Shown here one piece after another: positions 7,599-10,258 of a stretch of DNA of 64,000 nt. This DNA comes from Nitrospira defluvii (GTDB lineage: Bacteria > Nitrospirota > Nitrospiria > Nitrospirales > Nitrospiraceae), in the NCBI GenBank assembly GCA_011525625.1, contig WYAX01000020.1, positions 124,001 through 188,000 of the forward strand, in the 5' to 3' direction. Under the pieces are notes generated by a model. The model saw nothing but the letters and a program-made list of their open reading frames with translations, did not search any database and was not told where the DNA came from. Position numbers and translations under genes: made by a program. Within the stretch, counting starts at the first letter, position 1; each line of letters starts with the position of its first letter.

Positions 7599-7949
7599 TG
7601 GTGGAGGCGAGGGGAGTTGAACCCCTGTCCGAAGATCGTCGGCACATCGCATCTACATGTGTAGCCGATTCTTTAAGCTTCGCAGCGACCCACGCCTATC
7701 GGCCGGCTTAGAATCACCGCTAGCCCAGCATTGTCTCGCCCCTCGCCGCTGAGCACCGGCGTGGGACCAGTCCGCTGCATCGCGCCATTCCACCCCCGCG
7801 GACCTCAGATGGAACGACGTCTCAGCCTAAATTAGGCTGCGAGTGCCAGTTCTTGGTTGGCAGTTGCGTTTTTCCCGGAATTTTACGAGTTCCCGAGATC
7901 TCGACATGCAACGATGGCGTCAATATCCCCGTCGAAACCGGTCGCCCCC
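7599..7949 (-). ncRNA. ssrA: Transfer-messenger RNA (tmRNA)
   Basis: The 5' end GGGGGCGACCGGTTTCGACG (from 7949) and the 3' end, GGTTCAACTCCCC followed by CGCCTCCACCA (ending 7599), are diagnostic of tmRNA. The terminal segments pair as a 7-bp acceptor stem (GGGGGCG with CGCCUCC) before A-CCA, and CCA is encoded. The tag frame reads from GCA at 7867 to TAA at 7832 and gives ATANQELALAA, whose ALAA end matches proteolysis tags in other bacteria. With SmpB (46512-46991) it rescues stalled ribosomes and marks the nascent chains for degradation. A palindromic repeat starts only 5 bp upstream of the 5' end. Confidence 0.96.
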
Positions 7950-7953
7950 TAAT

Positions 7954-8075
7954 CAGAATGTTGATAAAGGCCTCCAGCTTTGTTCTCGCATCGCTCAACA
8001 CCTCGACCTACTGAATAGTAGGCCTCGGCCTTTCGCTCGCTGCAGCCTCGCTGAGAGGCCTTTCTGAACATTCTG
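7954..8075. repeat. Palindromic intergenic repeat, copy A
   Basis: About 122 bp forming an imperfect inverted repeat. The outer arms are CAGAATGTT...AAAGGCCTC and GAGGCCTTTCTGAACATTCTG; a small inner hairpin is CCTACTgaatAGTAGG. It shares the arm theme CCAGCTT.GTTCTCGC and the right arm GCTCGCTGC.GCC with copies at 11971, 50621 and 62424. It abuts the 5' end of ssrA, so it must contain or displace that gene's promoter. Confidence 0.75.
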
Positions 8076-8138
8076 GAAGACATCTACTGTTTTCTTAGAT
8101 ACTCATCTTATCGCATGGATCAAGGGGAAGCCAGCCCC

Positions 8139-8157
8139 GGAGTTCTTCCACAACTCC
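8139..8157. promoter_or_regulatory. Inverted repeat GGAGTT-N7-AACTCC
   Basis: A perfect 6-bp inverted repeat with a 7-bp spacer in the long gap before the wHTH-ATPase gene. It could be an operator or a weak hairpin. It is not followed by a T-run on either strand. Confidence 0.35.
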
Positions 8158-8192
8158 GAACTCTTCTTATCCAACATCATTCTGGGCATAGA

Positions 8193-8234
8193 TTGACAAT
8201 TGCAATGTCTACACATTGACAATACCTTGACAAT
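8193..8234 (+). promoter_or_regulatory. Three direct TTGACAAT repeats before the wHTH-ATPase gene
   Basis: TTGACAAT occurs at 8193-8200, 8216-8223 and 8227-8234, with start-to-start distances of 23 and 11 bp, about two and one helical turns. This phasing is typical for cooperative binding by a dimeric or multimeric regulator. They lie 17 bp upstream of the GTG start of a gene with an N-terminal winged HTH, so autoregulation is likely (inference). Each TTGACA could also serve as a -35 element. Confidence 0.6.
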
Positions 8235-8250
8235 GTGACACCGTCGTTAC

Positions 8251-9285
8251 GTGGGTCCCAAGCAGAAAATCCTGGCGTTTCTCGCACGGAGAGCCTCGGC
8301 TACGGGGGGAGAGCTCCGTGAACACCTCGCTCTCAGTCGGCAGGCCATGAGCCTCCATCTGCGCAGCCTGCTCGAAACACACCAGATCGTCCGATTGGGA
8401 ACAACCCGGGGCGCTCGCTATAGCTTGGCAGGAAAAGCCGAGAAGCCGGCCACGATTGCGAGGCTCCTCCCAATCCGCGACTGCGATGAGGATCGCGTAT
8501 GGAACCAGCTTGCGGTGCAACTGAACCTTGAGCGCGTGCTGAGACCTAACGTGCTGGCCATCGTTCGATATGCCTTCACGGAAATGCTCAACAACGCGAT
8601 CGATCATTCACAGGCGGAACGTTGTTCCATACGATTCACTGTGACGTCGGGTTTCGTCAGTTTCGACATCCGTGATGCCGGTATCGGCCTGTTCCATTCC
8701 ATCGCGACCAAGCATAGCTTGCCTGACGAAGAGACAGCCTTGGTCGAACTGCTGAAAGGCAAAACCACCACGATGCCGGAGGCCCATGCAGGGGAAGGGA
8801 TCTTTTTTACCTCCCGCATCGGTGACGCCTTCACCGTGCGCTCTCATCGCATACAGATGGAATGGAAGCGCGCCAAGCACGACGTCTTCGTGTCTCAACA
8901 GCGGCACCTCGCCGGAACAGCCATCCACTTCACCGTTCACCGCAGTGCCCGTCATAAGCTGGAAGAGGTGTTCGGTGAGTTTGCCCCAGCGGAATATGAC
9001 TTTCAGTTCCAGAAAACCAGAGTGTTCGTGAAACTCCTTCGGCACGATTACGTCTCTCGATCGGAGGCAAAACGTCTGCTGGCCAATCTGGAGAAGTTCA
9101 GAGAAATCAGCCTCGATTTTCGTGACGTACGCTCCGTGGGACAGGGATTTGCGGATGAAGTGTTTCGCGTGTTCGCCAGTCGCCACCCTGGCATCATGAT
9201 CCACCCTGAGCACGCCAGTCCTCCCGTCCTCGCCATGATCAAACACGTCCGCCCCGTGACTCCCTCCACGACTCCCTCTCAGTAA
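8251..9285 (+). CDS. wHTH - HATPase (GHKL) - STAS-like DUF4325 regulatory protein
   Basis: 344 residues from a GTG; the upstream stop leaves no other start. Domain order: winged HTH (about 3-60, LREHLALSRQAMSLHLRSL), a GHKL ATPase of the anti-sigma/histidine-kinase type (N-box EMLNNAIDHS 111-120, G1 DAGIGLF 142-148, G2 HAGEGIFFTSRI 179-190), and a C-terminal STAS-like DUF4325 (about 254-310, LDFRDVRSVGQGFADEVFRVF). No phospho-acceptor His or transmembrane segment is seen, so it is a soluble regulator combining DNA binding, ATP binding and a partner-switch-like module in one chain. The target is unknown; three TTGACAAT repeats lie just upstream. No ribosome site is visible. Confidence 0.85.
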   Translation: MGPKQKILAFLARRASATGGELREHLALSRQAMSLHLRSLLETHQIVRLGTTRGARYSLAGKAEKPATIARLLPIRDCDEDRVWNQLAVQLNLERVLRPNVLAIVRYAFTEMLNNAIDHSQAERCSIRFTVTSGFVSFDIRDAGIGLFHSIATKHSLPDEETALVELLKGKTTTMPEAHAGEGIFFTSRIGDAFTVRSHRIQMEWKRAKHDVFVSQQRHLAGTAIHFTVHRSARHKLEEVFGEFAPAEYDFQFQKTRVFVKLLRHDYVSRSEAKRLLANLEKFREISLDFRDVRSVGQGFADEVFRVFASRHPGIMIHPEHASPPVLAMIKHVRPVTPSTTPSQ

Positions 9286-9304
9286 CTATTCGAGCCCGTA
9301 CAGG

Positions 9305-10258
9305 TCAAGGGGATGCCAGGGGTGGGATGGGGCGCCGCTCTACCGGATACTTTCGCTCCCGCCAGGCGTCGAGGCCGCCCTCCAGCGGGCGGACGCGATG
9401 GATGCCCTTCTTCTTCAGCAGGAACGCCGTCCTGGCGCTGGACACCTCATTGGGGCAGGTGCAGTAGAGGACGATATCGCGGTCGCGCGGGATTTCTTGA
9501 TGGCGATGTTCGATCTCCTCCAACGTGAAATTGAGGGAGCCGGGAATCGTGTCCGGATCGAGTTGGACCGACAGAGGATGCCGCACGTCCACCACACTGA
9601 TCGCCTCGCCTGCGTCAAGCCGCTGTTTGAGTTCGTCTACCGAGATCTTCGACATGCGCAGGTGCCGCAGGAACGTCTGCCGGTGATAGAACTTGTAGCC
9701 GATGAATCCCGCGAGACCCACGATCAACAACGTGAGCAGCAGCCCCCCGCCTTGATCGAACAGGCTGATGAGTTGTTCGAGTTGATTACGGAAGAGTGCC
9801 CCGACTCCTGCACTTGCACCGGCCCAGATGAGGGTGCCGGCCACGTCGTAGAGGATAAACGTGAGCGCGCTCATGCCGACGATTCCGGCCAAGGGGGGCG
9901 CGACGGTGCTGAAGCCGGGGATAAATTTGGCGAGCAACAGCGCGCGCGGGCCGTTCCGATGAAACAGATTTTCCGTATCGCGCACGCACGAGTCCGGCTC
10001 CAACGACAGCCGGCAGAGGAAGCCCAGCACTTTTCCGCCTTTATAGCGCCCCAGGTAGTACCAGGCGACATCGGGCGGCAAGGACGCGGCCACCGGTACG
10101 AGGAGCGCGGCCGCCACCGATAGTTTGCCGGCCCCCACGAGAGCACCGGCGGCGATCAGCAGGGGAATAGCCGGAATGGGAAAGCCGATCTGCTCGGCAA
10201 AGATCACCCAGAAGAGGACGCTCACCCCGTGGTCGGCCAGGAATTGAAAGGTGTCCAC
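9305..10258 (-). CDS. DedA-family membrane protein with C-terminal rhodanese domain
   Basis: 317 residues. Residues about 1-190 are a DedA/SNARE-associated (VTT) membrane domain: EQIGFPIPAIPLL, then GRYKGGK and FHRNGPRALLLAKFIPGFST, with 4-6 hydrophobic helices. Residues about 203-308 form a rhodanese domain (VVDVRHPLSV, IPGSLN, EGGLDAW) whose active loop is YCTCPNEVSSAR, with Cys268 in the catalytic position. DedA proteins are linked to lipid flipping and membrane homeostasis; rhodaneses carry persulfide sulfur. The fusion tethers a sulfur-handling domain to the inner membrane on the cytoplasmic side. It lies 15 nt downstream of the BT1-like transporter gene, so the two are probably co-transcribed. 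Confidence 0.88.
   Translation of the reverse strand: MDTFQFLADHGVSVLFWVIFAEQIGFPIPAIPLLIAAGALVGAGKLSVAAALLVPVAASLPPDVAWYYLGRYKGGKVLGFLCRLSLEPDSCVRDTENLFHRNGPRALLLAKFIPGFSTVAPPLAGIVGMSALTFILYDVAGTLIWAGASAGVGALFRNQLEQLISLFDQGGGLLLTLLIVGLAGFIGYKFYHRQTFLRHLRMSKISVDELKQRLDAGEAISVVDVRHPLSVQLDPDTIPGSLNFTLEEIEHRHQEIPRDRDIVLYCTCPNEVSSARTAFLLKKKGIHRVRPLEGGLDAWRERKYPVERRPIPPLASP

Follow-up and report, generated by a model that had tools for sequence, protein, structure and literature searches.

A solitary wHTH-GHKL-STAS gene of Nitrospira defluvii and its relatives, with a predicted private array of direct repeats at a fixed helical phase

In Nitrospira defluvii, a single gene that encodes a predicted winged helix-turn-helix (wHTH) domain, a GHKL ATPase domain and a STAS-fold domain is probably a self-contained, horizontally movable and autoregulated switch, judging from sequence comparison with its relatives. 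The gene (8251..9285, + strand) lies in a 64-kb window, which is the whole stretch of DNA that was analysed, and begins with a GTG codon to give a protein of 344 amino acids. A row of short direct repeats precedes it, and in the loci compared such a putative operator array accompanies the gene from one phylum to another, with a motif that differs. The placement of the array over the gene's own start in many relatives suggests a switch that controls itself.

The box array and the predicted promoter

Three exact copies of TTGACAAT stand on the + strand ahead of the gene (box 1, 8193..8200; box 2, 8216..8223; box 3, 8227..8234), with no further copy in the 64-kb window. A preliminary description of this DNA had reported three identical upstream 8-mers 23 and 11 bp apart, and they are indeed present at 8193, 8216 and 8227. 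Its interval of 8193-9285 is correct but leaves out flanking repeats at 8120-8134 and 9305-9319, and it did not mention box 2 as a likely -35 element, other motifs at equal phase or a cassette at an insertion hotspot. The bare count of three boxes in the window is not significant (mean of 1.42 expected; at least three in 15 of 100 shuffles) and could be chance. The finding is their tight clustering together with their conservation.

TTGACA is the consensus -35 element of sigma-70 promoters, and the copy within box 2 (8216-8221) is the putative -35 element of the gene, with a conserved nA...T hexamer exactly 17 bp downstream. Of 23 aligned upstream regions, 21 have A as the second base of this hexamer and 20 have T as the sixth. 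In the window it reads CACCGT (8239..8244, + strand), which would be a weak -10 element, and in one relative (L044) it reads TATATT. The start codon follows 6 nt after the hexamer here and 6-9 nt after it in the relatives that keep it, and because this distance is only 6 nt, the mRNA is predicted to be leaderless. Because box 2 coincides with the putative -35 element and box 3 lies within the -35/-10 spacer, autorepression is the best reading of the box placement, while activation through box 1 instead of repression is possible.

Given that TTGACA matches the consensus and that box 2 is seemingly used in this way, the boxes might be nothing other than -35 elements that happened to be repeated and were then kept through common descent. 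However, boxes 1 and 3 lie off the presumed -35 position and yet are about equally conserved, other subfamilies carry TTGTCGA or TTTAAGAAA at 22 bp, and off-phase repeats are nearly absent, which makes this explanation scarcely credible.

Conservation of the array with the gene in the Nitrospira family

The 147 genomes of the family were searched for the pattern TTGACAAT-N15-TTGACAAT-N3-TTGACAAT, allowing up to 3 mismatches in 24 positions, with the reversed pattern as control. This search found 24 arrays in 19 genomes versus none for the control, and 21 of these arrays immediately precede a wHTH-GHKL-STAS gene. Relatives of the protein are present in 33 of the 147 genomes by protein search. 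A copy at least 65% identical is found in 17 genomes, all 17 of which have the array at 23 and 11 bp (the copy in G025 is split); the array occurs in only 2 of the 130 other genomes, both without the gene. The preliminary description had tied the boxes to the gene and named homologs without conserved boxes as the counterexample to look for, and among the close homologs none was found.

The remaining three arrays, one in G011 and two in G015, are left-behind operators, in that the gene is absent and other ORFs follow. Such conserved arrays without the gene, or "ghost operators," are seen at loci L073 and L070, and at L070 an XRE-like HTH ORF, read by eye, comes directly after box 3. Across the 23 aligned upstream regions, which include MAG contigs labelled Rokubacteria, Beta-, Delta- and Gammaproteobacteria and Acidobacteria (labels unchecked), the boxes are constant and the bases between them are variable. 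Box conservation is weaker in five of these regions (L042, L043, L044, L045 and L046), with 2 to 7 mismatches of 24, and the count for L043 is inflated because its first step is 24 bp. Five genomes (G010, G013, G015, G020 and G029) have a further row of boxes 64-66 bp upstream of the array.

Other motifs at the same helical phase

By profile search, relatives are present in 31 of the 369 genomes searched from the class of Nitrosomonas nitrosa and in 7 of 391 from the class of Frisingicoccus. Just ahead of the start codons of many relatives, other motifs stand in rows (TTTACAAT, GTTGTCGAT, CCTTTAAGAAA, AAAGTTTACA and GTTACAAT), and rows of AAAGTTTACA are also found upstream of distant copies in the Nitrospira family. 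A row was defined as at least 3 copies of an 8-mer, with no more than 1 mismatch allowed, that are spaced 10-12 or 21-24 bp apart inside 130 bp. Such a row is present in 54 of 72 upstream regions, while 18 fail this strict three-copy test, compared with 49 of 2880 dinucleotide shuffles (1.7%) and, among other genes at the loci concerned, 1 of 82. Three off-phase step sets gave rows in 1, 2 and 2 of the 72 regions. The step set was picked after the first sequences had been viewed, and its checks are a spacing scan of the upstream regions, which peaks at 21-22 bp, and provirus copies that were fetched later.

Grouping at 60% identity gave 31 clusters, and a row is present in one or more members of 22 of these. 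When each cluster was reduced to a single representative, exact 7-mers were repeated at a distance of 21 bp in 13, of 22 bp in 10 and of 23 bp in 5 of the 31, against a shuffle background with a mean of 0.2-0.7 per distance. In the 18 non-duplicate provirus copies, an exact 7-mer recurs at 21 bp in five and at 22 bp in eight; five of the 18 pass the strict three-copy test, although one or two of those look low-complexity.

Start codons were picked by script or by hand out of candidate lists. Left out of the 72 regions were duplicates (L032-L035, of L004, L005, L006 and L008), two loci with the same genes as L148 and L147 (L050 and L053), a copy with no start codon and one internal stop (L007), a split copy (L018), one with Ns (L028), fragments (L049 and L051) and unrelated or partial entries (L002, L176 and L177). 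The provirus test left out 9 of 27 copies, seven for an incomplete N-terminus or a short upstream region (L204, L205, L212, L213, L214, L218 and L224) and two as duplicates (L210 and L229).

Changes in motif are accompanied by changes at residue 30, the first of the recognition-helix motif, which is R in TTGACA/TTTACA loci, K in three of three TTGTCGA loci and P or A in four of four TTTAAGAAA loci. Past residue 30 the link between motif and recognition helix is weak (partial r 0.20), and distant pairs have a mean helix distance of 0.60 for the same motif class versus 0.63 for different classes. In the clostridial subfamily, direct arrays of three copies are not clearly recognisable by eye, and the operator layout may be inverted. 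Four provirus copies (L221, L222, L225 and L226) have, by eye, GTTAAA boxes in direct and inverted orientation around TTTACA...TATAGT, which would be a different operator layout of that subfamily.

A predicted private operator and a lone gene

The preliminary description had also called for a genome-wide search for box clusters, and the organism's own genome holds only the array upstream of the gene. All other box pairs at 11 or 23 bp in this genome have 3 or more mismatches, and thus no second array was found. AGTTTACA arrays number 7 in 5 of the 147 Nitrospira-family genomes and are directly upstream of the gene in all seven cases, with 5 chance matches for the control pattern. Among the 369 genomes, 11 TTTACAAT arrays in 9 genomes were found versus 1 control match; 6 of them (4 genomes) are at the gene, and 5, with 2-3 mismatches, are in genomes without a listed copy.

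When flanking ORFs were clustered across sets of 36 and 37 loci, no recurrent partner gene emerged, in agreement with the orphan status first proposed, and no neighbour family recurs that would represent the adjacent sigma factor or antagonist gene of an anti-sigma partner switch. Small neighbour clusters in a few Nitrospira loci are fixed flanks (dedA, BT1, tmRNA side) or shadow ORFs. With no other array of such layout in the genome and no recurring partner, the array is, as a predicted operator, private to the gene.

A further possibility is that the protein is a transcription factor of the usual kind that controls a wider regulon through single boxes, and that the array is no more than its own promoter. 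The wHTH domain is of the ArsR/MarR type, which speaks for this, and single boxes are indistinguishable by sequence from -35 elements. However, the own genome has no 11-bp or 23-bp pair with fewer than 3 mismatches elsewhere, and the gene is patchy (33 of 147 genomes) and has no linked genes, so an ordinary regulator of this sort is unlikely.

Domains and ATP site of the protein

The protein consists of a predicted wHTH domain, a GHKL ATPase fold whose ATP site is intact, and a STAS fold, and the architecture given in the preliminary description stands, with Pfam and fold matches in agreement. A full-length AlphaFold2 (AF2) model, from an input of 33 sequences, has a mean pLDDT of 79.6. The wHTH domain (aa 1-62; 8251..8436, + strand), whose recognition helix is SRQAMSLHLRSL, resembles ArsR/MarR-like wHTH folds in structure comparison of this model (Z about 10-11), and its Pfam match to HTH_20 (aa 6-48) is weak and under the cut-off. 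The GHKL domain (aa 65-233; 8443..8949, + strand) resembles SpoIIAB (1til_E; Z 13.7, rmsd 2.9, 136 aa) in the same model and matches HATPase_c_2 at aa 96-198 (E 3e-7). The C-terminal domain (aa about 253-337; 9007..9261, + strand) is a member of Pfam DUF4325 (aa 272-326, E 3.4e-14, 52.7 bits versus a cut-off of 23), and when this part was folded separately (pLDDT 77.7), STAS structures topped the list of matches (RsbS, Z 8.0; RsbV, 7.8; SpoIIAA, 7.4). Structural matches of this kind speak to the fold alone.

The GHKL domain has the Bergerat fold with the N, G1 and G2 motifs of a SpoIIAB-type ATPase. In 72 of 72 sequences E111, N114, N115, H119, G144, G146, G181 and G183 are invariant, and the motif positions that vary are D118 (D in 55, E in 17) and D142 (D in 70, E in 2). 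In the STAS domain, Gln298 is found in all 72 sequences at the start of helix 2, the phospho-serine position of SpoIIAA and CapS; the position was located by where the predicted helix begins and not by residue-level superposition. Because this position is Gln throughout, a classical phospho-partner-switch is unlikely as the mode of action, and the earlier term "partner switch" is not supported in its SpoIIAA/RsbV sense.

A true phospho-partner-switch would make the gene a single-protein counterpart of CapK/CapS, in which the GHKL domain acts as a serine kinase on the STAS domain, in cis or in trans, and so releases DNA. The SpoIIAB fold, the intact ATP site and the E111-x-x-x-N115 arrangement are all consistent with a kinase, and CapK phosphorylates Ser54 of CapS, which frees DNA (PMC13373217). 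Other conserved residues, namely S120 (70 of 72), T173 (72 of 72) or T174 (71 of 72), could still be the phosphorylation target. Nonetheless, the invariant Gln298 and the domain order, wHTH-GHKL-STAS as opposed to HTH-STAS-GHKL plus STAS-wHTH, leave this explanation distinctly improbable.

A repeat-flanked cassette at an insertion hotspot

In its own genus (g1) the gene stands between the tmRNA gene (7599..7949, - strand), a divergent neighbour and fixed flank, and a dedA/VTT-rhodanese gene (9305..10258, - strand; VTT_dom and Rhodanese in Pfam), whose 3' end is the insertion site. Locus comparison shows a 15-bp direct repeat on each side: the upstream copy, TCAAGGGGAAGCCAG (8120..8134), repeats the 3' end of dedA, and the downstream copy, TCAAGGGGATGCCAG (9305..9319), is the reverse complement of the last dedA codons and stop. 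Both copies, with at most 3 mismatches, are present at every one of the 8 g1 loci where this subfamily has a near full-length gene (that of G061 is a pseudogene), and empty sites (L108, L117 and L119) consist of the tmRNA gene, a single repeat copy and dedA. Truncated remnants keep both repeat copies in G030 and one in G055.

The gap between tmRNA and dedA (7950-9304 in the window; loci L094-L142) is an insertion hotspot for single genes, and no integrase was noticed inside it. Relatives that are 36-38% identical and have other boxes occupy the same site (L097, L107 and L109). Other single-gene cargo includes an anti-phage dCTP deaminase (G098, L134; PADLOC E 1.5e-153), a MUG113/GIY-YIG-type protein and unknowns. 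A protein of about 220 aa adjoins dedA at the hotspot in six loci (L126, L131, L132, L139, L141 and L142), and its L126 copy has no Pfam match. In another genus (L011, L013 and L036), repeats of 80-97 bp, which by eye resemble the 3' terminus of a BT1-type transporter gene, flank the gene and one further ORF. It is as if gene 3' ends serve as attachment sites. In G072 the tmRNA is in two overlapping pieces 1.2 Mb apart (C1:1571332-1571617 and C1:2752181-2752361), one of which adjoins the gene. Beyond the tmRNA gene, the window has an ORF (372-1775) in which DUF1016_N is fused to an N6 DNA methylase domain and, near it, a ParE toxin gene (2328-2666), which form a small restriction/toxin cluster.

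Decayed copies are common (G025, G030, G055, G061 and G118). Single-protein searches found no relative in 72,556 plasmid records (two queries) or in phage records. In viral contigs, a single-protein scan found none and an alignment-based scan found 27 relatives; the early null resulted from the lower sensitivity of the single-protein scan. The exact window array was not found in viral contigs. Ten provirus neighbours compared with PHROGs gave endolysin in two cases, a tail protein, a terminase small subunit and a transposase, the rest being of unknown function or unmatched, and ten compared with PADLOC gave no matches. For the window protein, no PADLOC model matched over the whole length, with only weak Csa3 matches over the wHTH part. 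The repeat-flanked cassette, the decayed copies and the proviruses form the pattern of accessory, mobile cargo.

Another conceivable reading is that the repeats are replication iterons or the partition site of a former mobile element, with the protein as initiator or centromere binder. Tandem 22-bp repeats beside an autoregulated wHTH gene recall plasmid iterons, and the best PDB sequence match of the wHTH domain is AspA, a centromere-binding protein. Against this stand the lack of relatives among the plasmid records, the chromosomal or proviral setting, the overlap of the repeats with the promoter, their number of only about 3 copies and the absence of a recurring neighbour gene family. Such an origin is therefore very improbable.

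Proposed mechanism

As an autoregulated switch, the protein might work as follows. Using their wHTH domains, several protomers would occupy neighbouring boxes along the same face of the DNA. They would mask the -35 element together with the -35/-10 spacer and thereby keep their own transcription low; with boxes 2 and 3 occupied, RNA polymerase would be shut out. OmpR/PhoB-type operators are built in a comparable way, with 11-bp direct repeats on which wHTH protomers are placed head to tail, one per helical turn, whereas the family described here is without a receiver domain, mostly has a 22-bp period and carries GHKL and STAS domains instead. Because the repeats are direct and not inverted, a head-to-tail contact is called for. 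The candidate is the GHKL domain of one protomer on the STAS domain of the next, a contact of the SpoIIAB:SpoIIAA type without phosphorylation. We infer that a symmetric STAS-STAS contact would suit palindromes and that a GHKL-STAS head-to-tail contact would suit direct repeats.

ATP or a ligand at the GHKL-STAS pair, perhaps single-stranded DNA by analogy with CapK, would then break or re-set the row and free the promoter for a burst of protein. Because the ATP site is invariant and the STAS position is Gln in 72 of 72 sequences, ATP more likely drives shape or contact than a phospho-switch. That the burst serves an anti-phage or stress response is speculative, and is suggested by the cargo that shares the insertion site and by the provirus copies. 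A counterpoint is that it is hard to see what is gained from a lone autorepressor that has no other targets, unless the protein is itself the effector. The fullest version of this model, which should be regarded as tentative and rather doubtful, is of a widespread family of one-gene circuits in bacteria and proviruses, in which the wHTH-GHKL-STAS protein would polymerise head to tail on its own 11/22-bp operator row, sense phage or DNA damage via GHKL-STAS, free its promoter and itself act as the effector, without regulon or partner.

Relation to known systems and significance

The closest known system is CapK/CapS, in which a GHKL-STAS kinase and a STAS-wHTH repressor form a DNA-damage switch that is activated by single-stranded DNA (Chambers et al. 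2026, EMBO J, PMC13373217). According to that paper, capK is always followed by capS, 348 of 443 such pairs precede immune operons, and CapS may, as a proposal, assemble into filaments on DNA. Both systems combine an ArsR/MarR-type wHTH, a STAS domain and a SpoIIAB-like GHKL domain as a repressor switch, demonstrated for CapK/CapS and proposed here; further points in common are autoregulation, predicted here, and a proposed cooperative or filamentous mode of binding. According to the same paper, however, CapK/CapS consists of two adjacent proteins by immune operons, CapS has an invariant phospho-Ser at STAS helix 2, and CapS binds palindromic TTAA sites, whereas the system described here is one solitary protein without an operon, has Gln at that position and is preceded by direct TTGACAAT repeats. 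VapKSC likewise has a GHKL-STAS module in a mobile-defence setting, but VapS inhibits a toxin directly (PMC13373217), and no toxin gene recurs at the loci compared here. CapS and VapS are absent among the sequence-search matches, an absence that proves nothing. For SpoIIAB/SpoIIAA and RsbW/RsbV, both folds were found by structure comparison, but here there are no recurring partner genes and no phospho-Ser, and a DNA-binding domain is fused.

In the literature searched, mentions of DUF4325 were found only in table cells. Neither a one-protein wHTH-GHKL-STAS family nor its arrays are described in the literature searched, most subscription papers being outside the search, and a one-protein GHKL-STAS switch with its own array is a variant so far undescribed in that literature.

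If this interpretation is correct, the gene would be a compact module that can be transferred and whose recognition domain and operator change in concert at a fixed helical spacing, and the family would offer a natural series for reading protein-DNA recognition codes. It would also test whether the GHKL-STAS contact can serve polymerisation instead of phosphorylation, and would provide a first testable role for DUF4325 proteins. Furthermore, the cassette setting links the gene to the defence and stress switches that are emerging around CapK/CapS.
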